This document shows, piece after piece, positions 10,778 to 26,487 of a DNA stretch of 64,000 nt (its first letter is position 1; each line of letters begins with the position of its first letter). Under the pieces are notes generated by a model. It saw nothing but the letters and a program-made list of their open reading frames with translations, ran no database searches and was not told the origin of the DNA. Location: contig JABDEK010000004.1 of NCBI GenBank assembly GCA_013287135.1, positions 1-64,000 on the forward strand, in the 5' to 3' direction. Both the position numbers and the translations under genes were made by a program. The stretch is from Acidobacteriota bacterium. Its GTDB lineage: Bacteria; Acidobacteriota; Terriglobia; Acidiferrales; UBA7541.

Positions 10778-12121
10778 ATGCGTGTACAGCGCGTGCGATT
10801 CGCAGTGCTTCTGTTGCTGGGATGTTCTTTGGGTGTAAAGGTGCCGAGGTGTAGCGGCCAAACGCCGCAGCAGCAGCCTGCTGTCCCGCCGGCGCCCAAG
10901 ATACAACCGCCAGCGGCGCAATCGCACGGCGCGGTTCGCCTAAGTCTGGACGAAGCCATCCAATTGGCCCTTCAAAACAATCACAATTTGAAGGCCGCTC
11001 AAACGACCATCCAACAAAACCAGGCGCAAGAAATCACCGCGAATCTGCGGCCCAATCCCAGCCTGACCCTAGACGCGCAATTCCTGCCGATTTTTCAGCC
11101 CGAAAACTTTACGCTCAACTACATCGACACCACCGCGCAGTTTGATGTGGGCATTTCATACTTGTTTGAACGCGGGAAGAAGCGTCAGCACCGCTTGCAG
11201 GCAGCCCAAGACACGACTGCGCAGACGAGATCGACCGTTGCCGATAACGAGCGCACTCTGACTTTCAACGTGGCTTCGCAGTTCTTAAGCGTTCAGCTTG
11301 CGGAATCCACTCTCGATCTGGCAATAGAGGATATGAAGAGCTTTCAGAAAAGCGTGGACATCAGCCAGGAGCGTTACAAGTCCGGCGCCATCAGTGAAGG
11401 TGACTATCTGAAGATCAAGCTCCAATTGCTGCAGTTCCAGAGCGACGTCTCGCAAGCACAGCTCGCCAAAGTTCAGGCGCTCGTCGGCCTGCGGCAGTTA
11501 CTCGGATACCACACCGTCGGGGCGGACTTCGACGTCTCGGCCGATTTCGACTACCTGCCGGTCACCGTCAAACTCGAGGACCTGCAGGCCAAAGCCTTGC
11601 AGAACCGGGCGGATCTTAGAGCCGCGCAACAAGGCGTGATCGCAGCGAAGAGCCAGTACGAACTGGCGAAGGCCAATGGGAAAGTCGATGTCACTGGCAC
11701 GTTCAATTACGACCATGTGAGCGAAACCAACACCGGTTCGATTTTCGGAAGCTTCCAGATTCCGATCTTCAATCGCAACCAGGGCGAAATCGCACGTACG
11801 AATTACGCAATCAATCAGGCCCGGGAGTTGGAGCTGGCAGCGAACGACCAAGTGATGAGCGACGTTCTGAATGCTTACGAGGCCGTTCGCGATAACGACC
11901 AGGTGGTCACCCTCTATCGCTCCGGTTATCTCGATGCAGCGAAGCAATCGCGCGACATCAGCGAGTACTCCTACAAACGCGGTGCCGCAAGCCTTCTGGA
12001 TTTCCTTGATGCTGAACGCAGCTACCGCGCTACCGAACTAGCCTATCGTCAGTCCTTGGCAGCCTATCTAACCGCGGTCGAGCAACTCCGCGAAGCCGTC
12101 GGAGTGAGAACTTTGCCATAA
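10778..12121 (+). CDS. TolC/CusC-family outer membrane efflux protein
   Basis: This 447-aa protein has an N-terminal signal segment (RFAVLLLLGCSLG), a proline-rich linker, and two outer membrane efflux protein repeats rich in long helices. LSLDEAIQLALQNNHNLKAA begins the first repeat, and SFQIPIFNRNQGEIARTNYA is the typical beta-barrel strand of the second. It forms the outer membrane channel of tripartite pumps. It converges on the ferredoxin-like gene 12 bp away, next to the RcnR/ATPase block, which suggests a metal-export role (inference). No inner membrane RND or HlyD partner lies adjacent. Confidence 0.85.
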   Translation: MRVQRVRFAVLLLLGCSLGVKVPRCSGQTPQQQPAVPPAPKIQPPAAQSHGAVRLSLDEAIQLALQNNHNLKAAQTTIQQNQAQEITANLRPNPSLTLDAQFLPIFQPENFTLNYIDTTAQFDVGISYLFERGKKRQHRLQAAQDTTAQTRSTVADNERTLTFNVASQFLSVQLAESTLDLAIEDMKSFQKSVDISQERYKSGAISEGDYLKIKLQLLQFQSDVSQAQLAKVQALVGLRQLLGYHTVGADFDVSADFDYLPVTVKLEDLQAKALQNRADLRAAQQGVIAAKSQYELAKANGKVDVTGTFNYDHVSETNTGSIFGSFQIPIFNRNQGEIARTNYAINQARELELAANDQVMSDVLNAYEAVRDNDQVVTLYRSGYLDAAKQSRDISEYSYKRGAASLLDFLDAERSYRATELAYRQSLAAYLTAVEQLREAVGVRTLP

Positions 12122-12133
12122 GCACCGCATTTT

Positions 12134-12514
12134 TCAGTGTCGAAGCGTATGACTGAACGGATCAATGGTATGACCCCTAAAGCTTTTAGGAAGAGGAAGC
12201 AGCCGCGCCGCGTTTCTTGACGCAACCGCCCATTCCAGCAGTTCGCGATACTGCTCGAATTCGTCGATATTTCCCAACCACTGGGTTCCACTTTCATTCG
12301 AAATTGTCACAATATTTGGAACGTCGCAGGGTCCTAAGCAACCGCTCATCGTGAGCTGAATCCGTTTCAATAAACCTCTGGCCCGCCACTCCTTTTTTAA
12401 CCATTCAACCGGAACAGCTGGTCTTCCATTCGCCGTATTCCCGCAGCAACACCCTACACATACACTCACTTGCCCTAGCACGAGTTTCTTCGTCTTTAAT
12501 GCTAACTCTTCCAT
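12134..12514 (-). CDS. Thioredoxin-like [2Fe-2S] ferredoxin-type protein
   Basis: This 126-aa cytoplasmic protein has a cysteine-rich start (Cys19, Cys22, Cys23, Cys24 in VCVGCCCGNTANG) and a second pair Cys59/Cys63 in MSGCLGPCDVPN. This is the spacing of thioredoxin-fold [2Fe-2S] ferredoxins and related metal-binding proteins. It is the last gene of an apparent RcnR-ATPase-ferredoxin series on the minus strand, 33 bp after the ATPase. A role as electron carrier, metal chaperone or cluster-based sensor for the efflux system is possible; the sequence alone does not decide. Confidence 0.65.
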   Translation of the reverse strand: MEELALKTKKLVLGQVSVCVGCCCGNTANGRPAVPVEWLKKEWRARGLLKRIQLTMSGCLGPCDVPNIVTISNESGTQWLGNIDEFEQYRELLEWAVASRNAARLLPLPKSFRGHTIDPFSHTLRH

Positions 12515-18538: not shown

Positions 18539-20965
18539 ATGGAAACATCTTCCGCTCTTTTTGAGCTCGCGAGCGTGTCGCTAGCGTGTCGCGATCAAGA
18601 CACATTACTCAAGACTTTTGCCGCTCGAGTGGGCGCCACACTCGGAGCGCGTGCCGTGCTCGTTTGGATCGCGAATCCAACGGGCGAAGATCTGGTTTGC
18701 CGCATGCGCTGGACCGAACCCGGTGAACGCCTTCATCCGAGAGACTTGCCAGCGAGCGGAGGGATGCTGGGAATACTATATCAATCGGCCGCCACTCGAC
18801 GTTTGCCTGCCCGTGAAATCTCGGTAGAGGATCTCGAGCATCTTGACGAATTCAGCCGCACGCGCGTGAAATCTGCGCTCTATGCTTCTTTGCCAGGCGT
18901 GCAAAGACCTGAAGGGGTAGTAGAAGTCCTGAATAAACGCGCTGGAGAGTTTACCGCTGAAGACGCTCACTTTCTGGAAGAAGCCTGCCGCCTGGCGGGC
19001 GGCGCTTTAACGAATTTGGACGCGATTGAAGCCGAGCGCCATGCGCAACTCTCCACCCTCGAACGCCTCACCGCCCTTTACGATCTCGGCCGCACGTTCA
19101 CATCGACTTTAGAACTCGAAGAACTCCTTCCAATCGTCGCTGGTAAGATTCGCGACATTTTGGGGGCCGGCGCTTGCAACTTATGGCTCGCTTCTGCGGA
19201 CGGAGAACAACTTACCCTTGCGAAACAAATCGGAGAAGATCCCACAATTGAAGAAGACGCCACCGCACCGTTGAATGAAGGCCTTCTCGCCGACATCGCA
19301 CAACAAGCCAACCCCAAACTGCTCGAGGATCCCAGTGAAGAACCTGCGCTCGCCGAACGTATTAAAGCCGGAGGCGATTTCGAAATTCAATCGTGGATGG
19401 GCGCTCCCCTTCGCAAAGACGACGAAGTTCTCGGCGTCGTTGAAATAATCAACAAGTCCGACGGCACGCTGTTCAACGAAGATGATTTGTTTTTCCTTTC
19501 CAGCATCAGCGAGCAAGCTGCCGTAGCGCTGCATAACGCTAACTTGCTCGAATCCGAGCGTAAGGTTCACGCCCTCGACGCGCTTTTGAAGATTTCACAG
19601 GAAATTACCTCCACCCTGGATCTCGATCACGTGTTGACCACTGTAGTCGCGCAGTCTTCCAACGTGGTTCCCTTTGAGAGTTGTGTGATTGGATTCTACG
19701 ACCGCGGACGCTTCATCCTGGGTGCCGTGTCAGGTGAAACCGAAGTTCCCAAGACTCGGGAAATGAGCGACCTGCGCGAGCGCATGGAGTGGGTGGCCGA
19801 GCAGGAAAACCCCGTTTCGGCAAATTTGCACGAAGATGGCTGGCAATTTGACCCCGATGAAACGCGAGCGCAGGTCGTCTCGTTTCTCGAAGAGCATGGG
19901 CATCAGGGTTTCTATGGTCTGCCATTACGCGACGACCAGGGAACTCTCGGCGCGATGATTCTTCTTAGCAATGAGCCCGATTTCCTTTCAGAAAGCAATC
20001 TAGAGACGCTGGCCATTCTCGCCAGCCAGACCACCGTGGCCATACGCAATGCGCAGCTATATCAGCAAGTGCCGCTGGCGAACATCTTTCAACCGTTCGC
20101 CCAGCGAAAGAAAAAATTGATCGCGGCTATGCCCAGAAGCCGGGTAGTGGAATATGCCCAACGCGCCGGTATCGTCGGGGCCCTTCTGATACTCATTCCT
20201 TGGCCCATGCGCGTGGGCACCGACGCAACCGTAGTCCCGGCCGACCGCCGCGTCGTGAGCGCGATGGAAGGCGGCACGGTAAAACAGGTCTTCGTACACG
20301 AGGGAGATCTGGTAAAACCCGGACAAGTACTGGCGCAACTCGATGACAGCGAGGATCGCGTGAAATTGGCGGAAGCGGAGGCTTCCTTGTCTCAGGCACG
20401 CCGCGAATTGGCCGAAGCCGAATTTCGAAACGATCCTTCCGCTGCGGGGCAAGCGCAAATTCGCAACCAACTGTACTCCGCGGAAGTCGCGCTGGTGCAG
20501 CAACGTGTCAACGAAGCGCGATTGACTTCACCAATTAGCGGCATCGTGGTCACGCCGAAAGTGGAAGAAAAAACCGGCACCATGCTAAAGGCAGGCGATC
20601 CCTTTTCCGAGATAGTCGCCCAAGACCACATGGCTGCGGAAATGAGTGTTCCGGAGACAGACCTGGCCCTCGTACGGCCGGGACAAAACATAGCCCTGAA
20701 GTTGAATGCTTTCCCGACAATAACATTCAAAGGAAACGTGGAGCGCCTCGGCGCTAGGACCCATACCGACTCCGGCGACCAGTATTTTCTGGTGCGTGCT
20801 ATATTCGAAAATACTGGGGGAAATGCACGTGACGGAATGGTCGGAAGGGCGAGAATTCAGTCACATGGCGGGTGGTTCGGCAGTGGATGGTACCCGATAG
20901 GCTACGCCATTTTGCGCTCGCCATTCCGATGGATTTGGCAAAAGGCGTGGGCCTGGTTGCCGTAA
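18539..20965 (+). CDS. Triple-GAF sensor fused to an HlyD-type membrane fusion protein
   Basis: This 808-aa protein combines parts not usually joined. Residues 1-165, 170-340 and 342-510 are three GAF domains (for example LSTLERLTALYDLGRTFTST and VHALDALLKISQEITSTLDL, each ending in a QAAVALHNANL-like helix). Residues 541-558 form one membrane helix (GIVGALLILIPWPM). Residues 568-790 are an HlyD/biotinyl-lipoyl adaptor (GGTVKQVFVHEGDLVKPGQV and ARLTSPISGIVV). The topology places the GAF domains in the cytoplasm and the adaptor in the periplasm. GGGAGAG precedes the ATG. It starts a three-gene operon with a second adaptor and an M50 fusion. Cytoplasmic sensing coupled to export is inferred. 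Confidence 0.88.
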   Translation: METSSALFELASVSLACRDQDTLLKTFAARVGATLGARAVLVWIANPTGEDLVCRMRWTEPGERLHPRDLPASGGMLGILYQSAATRRLPAREISVEDLEHLDEFSRTRVKSALYASLPGVQRPEGVVEVLNKRAGEFTAEDAHFLEEACRLAGGALTNLDAIEAERHAQLSTLERLTALYDLGRTFTSTLELEELLPIVAGKIRDILGAGACNLWLASADGEQLTLAKQIGEDPTIEEDATAPLNEGLLADIAQQANPKLLEDPSEEPALAERIKAGGDFEIQSWMGAPLRKDDEVLGVVEIINKSDGTLFNEDDLFFLSSISEQAAVALHNANLLESERKVHALDALLKISQEITSTLDLDHVLTTVVAQSSNVVPFESCVIGFYDRGRFILGAVSGETEVPKTREMSDLRERMEWVAEQENPVSANLHEDGWQFDPDETRAQVVSFLEEHGHQGFYGLPLRDDQGTLGAMILLSNEPDFLSESNLETLAILASQTTVAIRNAQLYQQVPLANIFQPFAQRKKKLIAAMPRSRVVEYAQRAGIVGALLILIPWPMRVGTDATVVPADRRVVSAMEGGTVKQVFVHEGDLVKPGQVLAQLDDSEDRVKLAEAEASLSQARRELAEAEFRNDPSAAGQAQIRNQLYSAEVALVQQRVNEARLTSPISGIVVTPKVEEKTGTMLKAGDPFSEIVAQDHMAAEMSVPETDLALVRPGQNIALKLNAFPTITFKGNVERLGARTHTDSGDQYFLVRAIFENTGGNARDGMVGRARIQSHGGWFGSGWYPIGYAILRSPFRWIWQKAWAWLP

Positions 20966-20985: not shown

Positions 20986-21912
20986 ATGAAACGCGCTTTA
21001 CTCGTCTTGATCGCAACCATCGCTCTTAGCGGGAACGGTTGCGACAAATCTTCAGTAGCATCTAATGCCAAGGTTGCGCCGGAAACGCCGGCAAACTCAG
21101 CTCCTTCCCAACCAACCGCAAATACGGGAACCCCGAGGCCGTCCGAACCTGGTGATATCCTAAGCATCCTTACAGTAGAACATCAGGTAGATCTCTCATC
21201 GCAACGCGATGGCGTCGTAATTTCCGTGCTGAAAGATGAGGACAACGTTGTAAACACGGGCGACATACTGGGCCACCTGGATGACCGAACTTTGCAACAG
21301 GAACTCATCAAAGCTCGCGATGATCTGAAGGTCACCGAAAACAACCTGCAATACAAAGCAGCCGAATTGAAAGCTAAAGGCGCGGCCTACCGCCGCCAGC
21401 AACAATTGCGAGAAGCAGGGTTATCAAGTCAGGCCGATCTTGAACAGGCCGAATTCGAAGCCAAAGGCGCCGAGTACGATATGCACGGATACGAAGCCCT
21501 GGTCGAAAGCGGCAAAGCGGAAATCCATCGCCTTGAAATTGAAATTGATCAAACTGCTCTGCGCGCGCCATTTTCGGGTGTAGTGGTCCGCCGTTACATT
21601 CGAGAAGGCCAAGCCATTGCAAAGGGCGATAAGTGTTTTCGCATTAGCCAACTTTCTCCCCTTCAAGTCCAATTTCAAGTTTCTGAGTTGGCTGGCCCCC
21701 GTCCTGTTGCGGGCGCGCCGGTGGGCTTGGTCTTGTTAGACGGTTCGAATCGGCCGTTGAATGCGAAGGTCGTGAAGGTCAGTCCTACAGTGGACCCCTC
21801 CAGCGACAGCTACAACGTAGTGGCCCAACTTACCGGTCCTGGACTCGAGAATCTGCGCCCCGGAATGGCCGTGCGAGTTGGATGGCCAGGAACTTCGCAA
21901 CCGAAGCCCTAA
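20986..21912 (+). CDS. HlyD/RND-type periplasmic adaptor, possible lipoprotein
   Basis: This 308-aa protein starts at the ATG at 20986 (GAGGAAA ribosome binding site). Its N-terminus (RALLVLIATIALSGNGCDKS) fits a lipoprotein signal with Cys19, although the lipobox is imperfect. A half-lipoyl domain (RDGVVISVLKDEDNVVNTGD), a helical hairpin of about 90 residues (QLREAGLSSQADLEQAEFEA) and a second half (QTALRAPFSGVVVRRYIREG) follow, then a beta-barrel. Such adaptors link inner and outer membrane components. It lies 20 bp after the GAF-HlyD gene and 15 bp before the M50 fusion. Confidence 0.88.
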   Translation: MKRALLVLIATIALSGNGCDKSSVASNAKVAPETPANSAPSQPTANTGTPRPSEPGDILSILTVEHQVDLSSQRDGVVISVLKDEDNVVNTGDILGHLDDRTLQQELIKARDDLKVTENNLQYKAAELKAKGAAYRRQQQLREAGLSSQADLEQAEFEAKGAEYDMHGYEALVESGKAEIHRLEIEIDQTALRAPFSGVVVRRYIREGQAIAKGDKCFRISQLSPLQVQFQVSELAGPRPVAGAPVGLVLLDGSNRPLNAKVVKVSPTVDPSSDSYNVVAQLTGPGLENLRPGMAVRVGWPGTSQPKP

Positions 21913-21927
21913 AAGGATTGTCGATCG

Positions 21928-24075
21928 ATGCGTTTCGGCCCCACCAGCCTTCAAGTTTCCAGCGTTCTCGCAAAAGGGCTCAAGCGCCCCAAACTCCGCG
22001 CCGACCTGCGTATCAGCGAACAGACGGTGGCGGGCGAAGTCAGTTACGTAATCAAAAACCGCGAGACCAATTCCTATAACCGCTACGGAAGCACGGAATA
22101 CCAGTTGTTGTCGCTTTGCGATGGCACGCGTACACCCGCGGAAATCGCCCGGGCCATGTCCGCCGACGACCCGGAATCGCAAACCAGCGAAGCCGAGGTG
22201 CTCGAATTTCTCGATTCCATCGAACCCACCATGTGGGAACGATCGATCGGTGAGAAAAACCTCGCGGTTTTGGAGCGAATTCGCGACGAACGCAAAGGCC
22301 GTATCGATCAGTCGAGTGTCCTTTACATCAGCTTCAAAGCTTGGAACCCGGATAAAACCCTGGCGAAATTAGACACCTATCTTTGGTGGATGTTTACAAA
22401 GAGTTTTGTGATCTTTTCATTGTTTATATTCGTCGTCGCCGTTTACCTGCTAGCGGGCGATTGGACCCGCGTTCAGCAGGACACCTCGGCCCTATATAAT
22501 TTTGCCAACAAAAGCGCGTATGACCTCTGGGTCTTCTGGATTCTCCTTCTGGGCCTAGGTGCCATACACGAATTTGGCCACGGCCTCACCTGCAAACATT
22601 TCGGTGGGGACGTCCATCAAATGGGCTTTTTGCTCATCTATTTTACTCCCGCGTTTTTCACCGACACCACCGACATCCTCCTCTTCAAAACCGGCGCTCC
22701 GCGTCAATGGGTTATATTCGCCGGAATCTGGATTGAGCTAGTAATCTGCGGTTTGGCCGCCTTGGTATGGCATTTCTCCGCGCCCGGCTCGCTGGTGAAT
22801 GATTTCTTCTACAAGATGATGCTGCTCAGTGGAATTCAGGGTGCCGTTGTTAACCTGAATCCATTGATCAAGGCTGATGGCTATTACGCGCTTTCGCAAT
22901 TCTTGAATATCGATAACCTTCGCGAAGAATCCTTCGTTTTTCTTGAGGCCTGGGTTCACAAATACATTTTCCGACGCGACATCGACCTCCCACCTGCTAG
23001 CAAGCGCCAACGACGCATTTTTTTCTTGTTTGGAGTCTCCGCCATCGTTTACAGCACCTCGCTGCTAATTCTTGTGCTTCTCTTCGTCAAAAACGTATTG
23101 GTGAGCAAAATGGGCGACGCTTGGGGCTATGTTGCAACCCTTGGCATCGTGTATTTCTTTGCCAGGAAAAGTTTGCGAAAGGCCGTGCCGGCGGCTCGCG
23201 CTTGGATACGAGACAAAAAGGAGAAATATATGGCCTGGAAGATCACTCGCGCACAGGGCGCTTGGGCGCTGGGATTGATTCTCCTATTCCTGCTACCTCC
23301 TCTTTCATCAAAGATAACCACCGACCTAGTCCTCGAACCGGGAAAAGACGCGCGGGTTAGAGCTTTGGTGGAAGGGAGAGTCCAAAAAGTGTTTGTCCAT
23401 GAAGGCGATCAAGTCAAAGCCGGCCAATTGCTGGGCGTTTTGGAGAACCCTGAAGTGAATGCCGACGTCCAATCGCTCCAGCACAAGCTGGCTATCGCTA
23501 GCAGCAACCTGCGCACTAACCAGGATCGCTCGGACCTCGGTCAAACAGCACAAGCGGTACGTGATCGTAAGCGGCTCGCGCAAGAACTGTCGGTAGGAAA
23601 GAACAAAGTGCAGGGACTCGAAATTCGATCACCCATCGATGGTACCGTCGCGACCCCTAACGTGGACCAGGAAACCGGATCATACCTGTTGGCCGGCGAC
23701 GAGTTTGCACACGTAGTCGACCGAAGCATCATGAAAGCTCGAATTCTGGTACAGGATCGCGAAGTTCAAGATGTTCAACCAGGCGCTTCCGCAAAAGTGA
23801 AAGTGTTGCCATATCCTTTTCGCACTTACTCCGGCCACATCAATAGAATACTTCCGGCTGCGGCCCTGGACCATCCCGTCACACAAACCGAAAAACTCGT
23901 GCGTTTAGGCCAGGACTTGACAAATTACCTCGCAGTCGAAATGGACGTCCCGAACTCAGACGGGTCCCTGATCGAGGGCATGACCGGTAAAGCAAAGATC
24001 ACGGGGAATGAGGAATCTTTGGCTTGGCAGGCGGGAAAAGGAATATGGCGTTGGCTTCGTTCGCAATTCTGGTAG
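21928..24075 (+). CDS. PqqD-like domain / M50 site-2-type protease / HlyD fusion
   Basis: This 715-aa protein has three parts. Residues 25-100 resemble PqqD, the RiPP recognition element (YNRYGSTEYQLLSLCDGTRT ... VLEFLDSI). Residues 150-430 are a multi-helix M50 protease core with the zinc motif HEFGH at 214-218 and the NPLIKADG motif at 311-318, both intact. Residues 445-715 are an HlyD-type adaptor (VRALVEGRVQKVFVHEGDQV and LEIRSPIDGTVATPNV). The likely job is to recognise a small peptide in the cytoplasm, cut it within or at the membrane and hand it to the periplasmic adaptor (inference). It is the last gene of the operon and is followed by a bidirectional terminator. Confidence 0.9.
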   Translation: MRFGPTSLQVSSVLAKGLKRPKLRADLRISEQTVAGEVSYVIKNRETNSYNRYGSTEYQLLSLCDGTRTPAEIARAMSADDPESQTSEAEVLEFLDSIEPTMWERSIGEKNLAVLERIRDERKGRIDQSSVLYISFKAWNPDKTLAKLDTYLWWMFTKSFVIFSLFIFVVAVYLLAGDWTRVQQDTSALYNFANKSAYDLWVFWILLLGLGAIHEFGHGLTCKHFGGDVHQMGFLLIYFTPAFFTDTTDILLFKTGAPRQWVIFAGIWIELVICGLAALVWHFSAPGSLVNDFFYKMMLLSGIQGAVVNLNPLIKADGYYALSQFLNIDNLREESFVFLEAWVHKYIFRRDIDLPPASKRQRRIFFLFGVSAIVYSTSLLILVLLFVKNVLVSKMGDAWGYVATLGIVYFFARKSLRKAVPAARAWIRDKKEKYMAWKITRAQGAWALGLILLFLLPPLSSKITTDLVLEPGKDARVRALVEGRVQKVFVHEGDQVKAGQLLGVLENPEVNADVQSLQHKLAIASSNLRTNQDRSDLGQTAQAVRDRKRLAQELSVGKNKVQGLEIRSPIDGTVATPNVDQETGSYLLAGDEFAHVVDRSIMKARILVQDREVQDVQPGASAKVKVLPYPFRTYSGHINRILPAAALDHPVTQTEKLVRLGQDLTNYLAVEMDVPNSDGSLIEGMTGKAKITGNEESLAWQAGKGIWRWLRSQFW

Positions 24076-24187: not shown

Positions 24188-24274
24188 TTAGAACTTGGTC
24201 AATGGCTTGTAGTGGTTCAACGGCTTCACTGTTCCCAGCTTCTTTCCCTTTTTCACCGGCTTTGCTTTTGCCAT
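24188..24274 (-). CDS. Small lysine-rich peptide 1 (28 aa)
   Basis: The reading frame begins MAKAKPVKKGKKLGTVKPL and continues with nine residues ending PLTKF before TAA. It is too short for routine gene calling, but an AAGGAGA ribosome binding site precedes the ATG and two paralogues (24680 and 24802) share the MAK-K-LKK-K-L-TKPL pattern. The peptide is strongly basic, with ten lysines. A sigma-54-type promoter lies 55 bp upstream. It converges on the PqqD/M50/HlyD operon, sharing a terminator, which makes it a candidate substrate of that machinery. No function is known to me. Confidence 0.75.
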   Translation of the reverse strand: MAKAKPVKKGKKLGTVKPLNHYKPLTKF

Positions 24275-24328: not shown

Positions 24329-24344
24329 TGCAATCTACGAACCA
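24329..24344 (-). promoter_or_regulatory. Sigma-54 (-24/-12) promoter of peptide 1
   Basis: On the minus strand TGGTTCGTAGATTGCA matches the sigma-54 consensus TGGCACG-N4-TTGCA, with GG and GC separated by exactly 10 bp. The transcript would start near 24317, about 43 nt before the peptide start. A second near-identical site lies upstream of peptide 3. Confidence 0.75.
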
Positions 24345-24460
24345 AACCAGGATCGAGTGCTCCTGGAATTCCCGCACCTGATTTAAAAGCACTTACCGGC
24401 ATTAGGCACAAATAATGAAGAACCGGCGGTGACCGAAAGTGTTTAATTTTTTGTGCTGAA

Positions 24461-24801: not shown

Positions 24802-24870
24802 TTACCTCAATACGATGAGGGTCTTCGTCTGCTCCAGCTTTTTTGCCTTCTTTAAAGTCTTCTTTGCCAT
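24802..24870 (-). CDS. Small lysine-rich peptide 3 (22 aa)
   Basis: The frame begins MAKKTLKKAKKLEQTKTL and ends IVLR before TAA. GGGAGA precedes the ATG at good spacing. It is the first gene downstream of a sigma-54-type promoter (24916-24931), with a leader of about 35 nt. The pattern MAKK-x-LKKAK-x-LE-x-TK-x-L is shared with peptide 2. The conserved N-terminal half with variable tail is what one expects of a leader-core arrangement, or of cationic secreted peptides; which applies is unknown. Confidence 0.78.
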   Translation of the reverse strand: MAKKTLKKAKKLEQTKTLIVLR

Positions 24871-24915: not shown

Positions 24916-24931
24916 TGCAAACATAATACCA
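24916..24931 (-). promoter_or_regulatory. Sigma-54 (-24/-12) promoter of peptides 3 and 2
   Basis: On the minus strand TGGTATTATGTTTGCA fits the sigma-54 consensus with exact GG-N10-GC spacing, followed by CTA as in the peptide 1 promoter. The two sites share TTGG at -24 and TTGCACTA at -12. The neighbouring gene at 25063 encodes a sigma-54 activator. Confidence 0.75.
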
Positions 24932-25062
24932 ATGTCAAAGAAAAACAACGCCGTCGTTAAGTTAAGGATTTAAAAGCTGTTAGAAGAATTGCGCAGTTCC
25001 ATCAGGTGCAAAGCCTGTCGTCATCTGTTGAAATTCTCAGCGGATCGATTAAAAACTCAATG

Positions 25063-26487
25063 CTATAGATTGTATTTACGACATAGATAGTTTAGACGGT
25101 TCCGATCCACGCCGAGTAATTTAGCCGCTTCTGCCCTCACTTGCTTGGCCTGCTCGAGAGCTTCTTGGAGCCACCGGCGTTCAAATGCTTCCATTTCCTT
25201 CTCCAGGTTGATTCCGCCGGAGGGCAGCCGAAACCGGTTCCGCGAATCCCGGCCGGAAGCCTGTACGATTTCACTAGGGAGGTCTTTCAGCGAGATCACC
25301 TCCCCGTCGGTCATGATAACCAGCCGCTGAATCGCGTTCTGGAGTTCCCGGACATTGCCAGGCCACGGATAGCGCTTAAGGGCCAGCATCGCATCATCGG
25401 CGATACGCTTCAAAGGGAAGCCGTTGGCGGCACAATAGACGCTCACGAAGTAATCTGTGAGCACAGGTATATCTTCCACTCGTTCGCGCAGCGAAGGCAC
25501 GAAAATCGGCACTACGTGAATACGGTAGTAGAGATCTTCGCGAAACCGTTCCTCCCGAACCATTTCCTCCAAATCTTCGTTGGTCGCGCTAATAAGCCTG
25601 AAATCCACCTTGATAGACTTTTTGCCACCCAATCGGGTAAACGACCTATCCTCGAGCACGCGCAGGAGCTTGCTCTGGAGTGCGGGCGTTAGCGTCGCAA
25701 TTTCATCGAGGAAAAGGGTGCCTTGGTGGGCTGTTTCGACCCTACCTTCTTTTGTGGCGACCGCACCCGTGAAGGCGCCTTTTTCATAACCGAAGAGCTC
25801 AGCCTCCATCAAACCTTCAGGAAGCGCAGCGCAATTCACGCTAACGAACGCGCGATTGCGGCGTGGACTTTGCTCGTGAAGAGCCCGGGCAACCAGCTCT
25901 TTGCCTACCCCGCTCTCTCCTCGAATGATCACGTTGGTGGTCGCCCGGGCCATGCGCTTGATGGAATCGAACACGTGGCTCATGGCGTCGGTCGAACCGA
26001 TCAGATCGCCATGCGCGCTCTTGCGGCTTATCTCCTGACGCAGAATGCGGTTCTCGCGCTGAATGTGTAATTTTTCAACAGCGCGCTCAAGTAGATGCCT
26101 AAGGACGTCTGTGTCGATAGGTTTAATGAAGTAGTCGTAGGAGCCTGCGTCGATCACTTTCAGTGCGGTGGCCTTCGTTTCGTCAGAACTGAGAACGATT
26201 ACAAGCGTGTCAATTTCGCTTCCCACCAGCCGGCCAAGCAGCTCGGTGCATTCACGAACTCCTGCGTCGCCGAGCGGAAGACCTAGCAGAAGAACGTCCA
26301 GTTCAGAACCTTGTAGAAGCCGATAAGCCGCTTCGAAGTCTTGCCCTTCGAACACCTCAAACTGCGATCGCAGCGCGGATGCAATCTTCGAGCGCAGGCT
26401 GTGGTCGTCATCTACAATCGCAACTTTGGGCTTTGTTACTACCGGGGTGATAGTGGTCTCCGGCGGGGAGCTGACATAAATGACCAA
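25063..26487 (-). CDS. NtrC-family sigma-54 activator with a degenerate receiver domain
   Basis: This 474-aa protein has a receiver-like domain (20-140), an AAA+ domain (160-390) and a Fis-type helix-turn-helix at the C-terminus (RAEAAKLLGVDRNRLNYLCR). The AAA+ domain has Walker A GESGVGKE, the sigma-54 contact loop GAFTGA, and TLFLDEIATL. In the receiver the acidic pair DDD (26-28) and Lys (FIKPID) are present, but the phospho-acceptor Asp is Gly69 (DVLLLGLPLGD). It is therefore unlikely to be controlled by ordinary phosphorylation. It lies directly upstream of the peptide genes with sigma-54 promoters and is the obvious candidate regulator (inference). No histidine kinase is adjacent. Confidence 0.92.
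   Translation of the reverse strand: MVIYVSSPPETTITPVVTKPKVAIVDDDHSLRSKIASALRSQFEVFEGQDFEAAYRLLQGSELDVLLLGLPLGDAGVRECTELLGRLVGSEIDTLVIVLSSDETKATALKVIDAGSYDYFIKPIDTDVLRHLLERAVEKLHIQRENRILRQEISRKSAHGDLIGSTDAMSHVFDSIKRMARATTNVIIRGESGVGKELVARALHEQSPRRNRAFVSVNCAALPEGLMEAELFGYEKGAFTGAVATKEGRVETAHQGTLFLDEIATLTPALQSKLLRVLEDRSFTRLGGKKSIKVDFRLISATNEDLEEMVREERFREDLYYRIHVVPIFVPSLRERVEDIPVLTDYFVSVYCAANGFPLKRIADDAMLALKRYPWPGNVRELQNAIQRLVIMTDGEVISLKDLPSEIVQASGRDSRNRFRLPSGGINLEKEMEAFERRWLQEALEQAKQVRAEAAKLLGVDRNRLNYLCRKYNL

Follow-up and report, generated by a model that had tools for sequence, protein, structure and literature searches.

The closest described relatives of the locus analyzed here are the SecA_DEAD type-I-like loci of Kamneva et al. 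(2015; PMC4452313). These loci are reported to combine a GAF-HlyD protein, an M50-HlyD protein, a further HlyD protein, and a secondary SecA, and they possess no ABC transporter. The GAF part was suggested there to be regulatory, and the broader role of the loci was left "completely unknown"; Acidobacteria are missing from the list of groups in the paper's title. Because the GAF-HlyD architecture was reported in that work, the fusion as such is not new. The acidobacterial locus shares the three HlyD-type proteins and the missing ABC transporter with the loci as described there, whereas it has no secondary SecA and adds a conserved sigma-54 activator, a STAS gene, and a family of short peptides.

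A second group of relatives consists of the LEPR-XLL export loci of Alphaproteobacteria (NCBIfam NF012209), which contain homologous GAF-HlyD and PqqD-M50-HlyD proteins next to a cargo candidate that bears a short motif at its N terminus. In contrast to the acidobacterial peptides, this cargo is a giant protein, and the acidobacterial leaders do not match NF012209; a loose likeness of the form [KR]-x-L-[LI]-[SN] is our own reading only. The M50-HlyD protein also resembles the daptide/YydH-type HExxH proteases of RiPP systems (NF041824, NF058609). Its residues 34–412 match NF041824 with an E-value of 4.3e-53 and a score of 180.8 bits that lies below the cut-off of 300, and unlike those proteases it is fused to HlyD and has no conserved RiPP-modifying enzyme nearby.

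Type I secretion (HlyB-HlyD-TolC) and MacAB share the adaptor fold, with MacA and MexA as top structural matches, whereas the conserved acidobacterial module lacks an ABC transporter. The arrangement of leader and variable core that characterizes RiPP precursors is likewise seen in the class II peptides described below. Multi-copy peptide precursors, such as yeast alpha-factor and multi-core RiPPs, consist of a leader followed by many near-identical short units. In comparison, the acidobacterial peptides are bacterial, carry a strain-specific unit, and are linked to an exporter of their own; release of their units is putative. We propose, with a probability of about 0.62, that the locus encodes a dedicated peptide-processing and export module, in which GAF-HlyD is the first gene and the GAF triad serves as a cytoplasmic control or docking part.

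The GAF-HlyD protein and its operon

The window, i.e. the whole stretch of 64,000 nucleotides that was analyzed, contains an operon of three HlyD-type proteins. Its features, preceded by a TolC-type gene that lies outside it, are as follows.

10778..12121: TolC-type gene, 6.4 kb upstream of GAF-HlyD
18539..20965, + strand: GAF-HlyD, three GAF domains, a membrane helix and an HlyD adaptor, 808 aa, ATG start
18599..19009, + strand: GAF 1, 35.2 bits, over cut-off
19112..19531, + strand: GAF 2, 63.3 bits, over cut-off
19619..20044, + strand: GAF 3, 35.6 bits, over cut-off
20135..20194, + strand: predicted membrane helix, residues 533–552, from the AlphaFold2 model and a hydrophobic stretch in the sequence
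20252..20839, + strand: HlyD_D23/HlyD_3 adaptor, residues 572–767, both Pfam models above their cut-offs
20986..21912, + strand: second HlyD-family adaptor, 308 aa, with HlyD_3 and HlyD_D23 matches
21928..24075, + strand: M50-HlyD, a PqqD-like domain, an M50 intramembrane metalloprotease and an HlyD adaptor, 715 aa
22009..22218, + strand: PqqD/RRE-like domain of M50-HlyD, residues 28–97, three strands and three helices in the model

The initial annotation had described the first protein of this operon as three GAF domains, a membrane helix, and an HlyD adaptor, and Pfam and the AlphaFold2 model agree on this architecture. The 808-aa protein scores 119.8 bits against the Pfam GAF model (E 1.5e-34, cut-off 22.4), with matches in three stretches, and a GGGAGAG motif lies 5′ of the reading frame. 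The model (pLDDT 87.7, based on an alignment of 56 sequences) consists of three α/β domains, the hydrophobic helix 533–552, an adaptor fold, and a C-terminal helix (residues 787–806). Long helices (residues 140–187 and 314–358) connect the α/β domains.

By the positive-inside rule, basic residues flanking a membrane helix mark its cytoplasmic side. Because the aligned sequences carry basic residues directly N-terminal of the membrane helix, we place the GAF domains in the cytoplasm. Together with the adaptor fold and the two further HlyD-type proteins of the operon, the helix and its basic flank support the earlier view that the protein is an export adaptor whose GAF domains lie in the cytoplasm.

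The GAF-HlyD fusion is real and widespread in Acidobacteriota. An error that joined two genes in a single assembly, the objection that the annotation itself had raised, is ruled out: all 56 aligned relatives, which come from many assemblies, match both GAF and HlyD, and a long GAF-HlyD match was found in 23 of 61 related genomes (two of the 23 are cut by contig ends). Scanning 84,980 species genomes yielded 173 related stretches, and the best 80, which were kept, are all titled Acidobacteria or groups within. In a set of 297 genomes spread over the phylum, GAF-HlyD is present in 18. Granulicella aggregans M8UP14 carries the locus L119.

In nearly all acidobacterial relatives, the gene order GAF-HlyD, HlyD, PqqD/M50-HlyD recurs, facing a sigma-54 activator. 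This acidobacterial module without SecA is new here. Many relatives of the second HlyD adaptor possess a lipoprotein-like N terminus (44 of 71 by a loose lipobox pattern). M50-HlyD has the HExxH and NxxPxxxxDG motifs of M50 site-2 proteases, which are intact in the window (HEFGH and NLNPLIKADG) and do not vary in two alignments, one of 19 and one of 53 sequences; in the latter, His-214, Glu-215, His-218, Asn-311, Pro-312, and Asp-317 are present in 53/53. Pfam M50 is matched by 50 of 53 relatives at E 0.01, the window's own protein lying below the Pfam cut-off.

Of the 53 M50-HlyD homologues, only 5 match PqqD (PF05402) at E 0.01, and a fold search with the PqqD-like domain gave only adaptors among the 50 matches listed; both results count against leader-binding export. 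An M50-HlyD homologue from Pseudosulfitobacter, which aligns over the PqqD-like region, exceeds the PF05402 cut-off.

ABC transporters are absent from the gene families common to the surroundings of the module (20 loci), and the acidobacterial locus has no conserved motor of the ABC, RND, or SecA type, which also counts against an export function. The window's own genome (79% complete) yielded one SecA and no secondary SecA. Queries with SecA2 gave no match near the best 80 of the 173 loci, in the window, or in 20 further loci; DUF3467 relatives were likewise missing from the window and from the surroundings of the best 80 of 173, and near these 80 TolC relatives were not found either. An outer-membrane channel may act in trans. 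The TolC gene of the window, a TonB-type gene, and a P-type ATPase were considered as parts of the system and ruled out, as they are not syntenic in 20 loci. A 126-aa cysteine-rich reading frame (window positions 12134–12514), which has no Pfam match at E 0.1, adjoins the heavy-metal P-type ATPase.

The only further conserved gene family around the module encodes a STAS protein; no RiPP-modifying enzyme is among these families. The STAS gene is of the anti-anti-sigma type with the sequence DSSGIG. Among the best 80 of 173 loci, 43 carry it upstream of GAF-HlyD at a distance of at most 2.5 kb, and 10 on the far side of the activator. Where each flank measures 0.9 kb or more, it is found in 30 of 35 loci, and this conserved neighbor speaks in favor of the earlier suggestion that a cytoplasmic signal gates assembly of the export complex. 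The window's genome encodes an STAS relative with 83% identity on another contig (C101:8247-8579).

Homologues outside this group help to narrow down the role of the GAF domains. By Pfam, the GAF-HlyD homologues of Pseudosulfitobacter and Methylosinus possess one GAF domain, and those of Thalassospira and an E. coli plasmid, which align from the third GAF onwards, possess none. Since homologues without GAF exist, the domains are probably not needed for the core export job, and a role in control or docking appears more likely from these alignments. The variation between three, one, and no recognizable GAF would equally suit a purely structural platform that senses no ligand and serves to dimerize the protein or to dock the activator, the STAS protein, or a motor, and the long helices joining the domains resemble those of dimeric signaling proteins. 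We regard this as a plausible alternative with somewhat less than even odds, because all 56 acidobacterial homologues have kept their GAF matches.

Short peptide genes between exporter and activator

The gap between M50-HlyD and the activator measures 414–2867 nt (median 637) and contains short reading frames on the activator strand. In the window, this region comprises the following features.

25063..26487, − strand: NtrC-family sigma-54 activator with receiver domain, sigma-54 AAA+ domain and Fis-type HTH
24916..24932, − strand: sigma-54 −24/−12 site TTGGTATTATGTTTGCA, ahead of peptides A and B and common to both
24802..24870, − strand: peptide gene A, MAKKTLKKAKKLEQTKTLIVLR, 22 aa
24680..24754, − strand: peptide gene B, MAKKPLKKAKNLEPTKPLTRTAWK, 24 aa
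24462..24474, no strand: palindrome TTGAATTATTCAA, candidate activator site
24329..24345, − strand: sigma-54 −24/−12 site TTGGTTCGTAGATTGCA, ahead of peptide C
24188..24274, − strand: peptide gene C, MAKAKPVKKGKKLGTVKPLNHYKPLTKF, 28 aa
24102..24136, − strand: terminator-like hairpin 3′ of peptide C

The peptides begin with conserved leaders of three classes: KKGKKLxxxKxL (class I), KKSLIS followed by six residues and KKA (class II), and LTxEQKAKIKxATGK (class III). A rule combining these motifs with a Shine-Dalgarno sequence detected at least one peptide in 51 of 59 gaps, 60 reading frames in total, all on the activator strand. The same rule gave none on the opposite strand of the gaps and none in 1.02 Mb outside the gaps (both strands of the same loci), and shuffled gap sets contained a mean of 0.04 such frames per set. 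In the eight remaining gaps (L078, L083, L084, L088, L128, L131, L140, and L142) a peptide was found by eye, so that all 59 gaps contain one. The rules were drawn up after the sequences had been seen, which weighs against the export reading; six of six loci not used for the rule carry a peptide on the same strand, as does each of the later inspected L290, L292, and L293.

The 59 loci comprise 56 of the best 80, the window, L052, and L057. The other 24 of the best 80 were left out, as they do not have both an M50-HlyD end and an activator end in order, and so were L040–L059 except L052 and L057, most of which are the same contigs as loci among the 80. Close relatives (e.g. L118/L121/L130 and L131/L140) were counted singly, and the counts therefore refer to loci and not to independent events.

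Behind the leader, many of the peptides are built from repeats. Of 65 peptides examined, a shuffling test marked 38 as repetitive (p<0.01). Their periods range from 3 to 12 residues, and they include most of class II and III and few of class I. Examples are SKGGAL (about 12 times), NQPLLK (7 times), PNKLA (about 19 times), and GLREE (about 14 times). The three peptides of the window have no repeats, a point against the export reading. Class II peptides share a mean identity of 54% over the 18 residues that start at KKS, and of 10% over their last 30 residues.

Repeat units within single peptides differ mainly at silent positions, with a mean pS of 0.55 and a mean pN of 0.06, the latter biased downwards because repeats were picked by amino acid likeness. 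In 32 of 32 repeat peptides pS exceeds pN, and the high pS indicates that the repeats are old and have been kept. The repeat unit is specific to the strain when strains are compared and is held by selection within a peptide.

Searches of the peptides against Pfam and NCBIfam gave no match over the cut-off except one low-complexity repeat match. This match, of the L119 repeat to DUF963, we read as a repeat artefact. A search of open-access journal papers found none on these peptides, their promoters, or their tie to the exporter.

Most of the peptide genes are preceded by sigma-54 promoters. A simple sigma-54 pattern occurs twice in the 64-kb window, both times ahead of peptides, against an expectation of 0.17 matches. 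Across the loci, a site of the TTGGCAC-N5-TTGCA type (score at least 10) lies within 200 nt ahead of 52 of the 60 peptides, compared with 2.4% in shuffles. The same test ahead of GAF-HlyD gave 3 of 55, which is the chance level. TTGAA/TTCAA palindromes, considered as a general activator site, were found in 8 of 51 gaps only and are clade-local.

With a −24/−12 promoter and a GAFTGA activator, the locus has the features of a sigma-54 regulon. GAFTGA is intact in the window's activator. It is kept across 49 activators, except that 11 have an aspartate at the fifth position and 2 show mild changes. The acceptor aspartate of the receiver is present in 35 of these 49 and missing in 14; in the window it is replaced by glycine, and this activator is therefore probably not driven by ordinary phosphorylation. 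Its receiver, AAA+, and HTH domains include no GAF, confirming that the neighboring regulator shares nothing with the GAF part of GAF-HlyD.

Co-occurrence of peptides and exporter

The linkage between peptides and exporter is strong. A class II profile gave seven matches below 1e-4 in the 297 genomes, and all seven adjoin the M50-HlyD gene of their own genome; five weaker matches (0.017–0.043) lie elsewhere, and a class II peptide of G290 was missed by the profile and seen by eye. An exact class II DNA pattern was too strict for the same genomes, giving four matches of which one was unrelated. The class III profile matched six genomes below 1e-6, all with GAF-HlyD. Among its weaker matches, G344 (0.0013) has GAF-HlyD, and G165 (2.8e-4) and G259 (0.004) do not. 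Altogether, 13 genomes have a leader of class II (E<1e-4) or class III (E<1e-6), and every one of them belongs to the 18 of 297 with GAF-HlyD (p 5e-19); some of these species may also have supplied training sequences for the profiles.

In three of these 13 genomes (G084, G113, and G249), the peptide is located on another contig, and the exporter contig ends soon after M50-HlyD. The repeat peptides may break assemblies and may hence be under-annotated. The exporter contigs of L181, L183, and L184 also end soon after M50-HlyD.

Class I peptides occur in 17 of the 61 related genomes, 16 of which are among the 23 with GAF-HlyD; the exception, G036, is 79% complete. Class I genes are also found dispersed away from the exporter in genomes such as G024 and G002, which counts against the export reading. 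Most of these scattered genes have a Shine-Dalgarno sequence and a sigma-54-like site of their own, except L212 and one of two in L229. A third pattern match in the window's own genome is L062. In L223 (G002, C84:6365-6430), a longer frame encloses the class I motif (KRGKSLEAVKPLTKF), and the end of this frame we take to resemble Hcp of type VI secretion.

Proposed working and alternative cargos

On these grounds, the repeat peptides are probably the molecules exported by the adjacent machine. The NtrC-type activator together with sigma-54 would switch on the short peptide genes located between activator and exporter operon. Each peptide has the conserved leader, followed in most relatives by the strain-specific repeat tail. 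The leader would be bound at the cytoplasmic face by the PqqD-like domain of M50-HlyD and cut by the M50 intramembrane protease. An assembly of M50-HlyD, GAF-HlyD, and the HlyD adaptor, docked on an outer-membrane channel encoded elsewhere, could then pass the peptide out. The GAF triad would act as the cytoplasmic control or docking module of this assembly, perhaps together with the STAS partner, whose gene adjoins the operon in most relatives.

For one large branch of the exporter family, a likely cargo, leader, promoter, and regulator can now be named. Export of the peptides would mean that soil Acidobacteriota possess a rapidly diversifying peptide output that has been overlooked, and the drive of adaptor-only exporters without an ABC or SecA motor would need explaining. 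The peptides might even form a new bacterial class of multi-copy secreted peptides, in which each strain has its own unit and uses it as a strain-specific signal or bacteriocin. Processing and export would be the task of a GAF/M50/HlyD machine that lacks SecA and ABC parts and is controlled by sigma-54 and possibly by STAS; we offer this extension tentatively and consider it doubtful.

The alphaproteobacterial homologues point to a different kind of cargo. In all three loci (L174, L175, and L176), a giant protein with LEPR-XLL at its N terminus adjoins the homologues of GAF-HlyD and PqqD-M50-HlyD, which fits a leader-recognizing exporter; SecA_DEAD is found in two of the three, as are HlyD and TolC. 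LEPR-XLL itself may be a leader recognized by the PqqD-like domain. On the E. coli IncF plasmid NZ_CP081687.1 (L173), a giant Ig-like protein is encoded together with TolC and three HlyD-type proteins.

With giants beside homologous operons, and with class I peptides that are short and also dispersed, the acidobacterial exporter could likewise secrete a large surface protein or another substrate encoded elsewhere, the short peptides being regulatory or assembly factors. We consider this unlikely, because the acidobacterial loci contain no large conserved gene, strong class II matches lie beside the exporter only, and a leader with a hypervariable, selected repeat tail looks like cargo and unlike a regulator. 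That the operon is an ordinary efflux or metal-handling adaptor set with unrelated small genes nearby by chance is very improbable: its HlyD parts resemble RND/MacA adaptors and the window has a P-type ATPase 4 kb upstream, but this ATPase is not syntenic, and peptide, promoter, and exporter are found together far more often than chance would allow.

Taken with the peptide export favored here, the comparison suggests an exporter family that reads a short N-terminal leader via a PqqD-like domain and whose acidobacterial cargo would be short peptides, a last step that we infer. The HlyD-type set of the IncF plasmid includes the GAF-less GAF-HlyD homologue and an M50-HlyD protein and represents a plasmid-borne relative of the exporter. 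Further plasmids from E. coli and Citrobacter also match.
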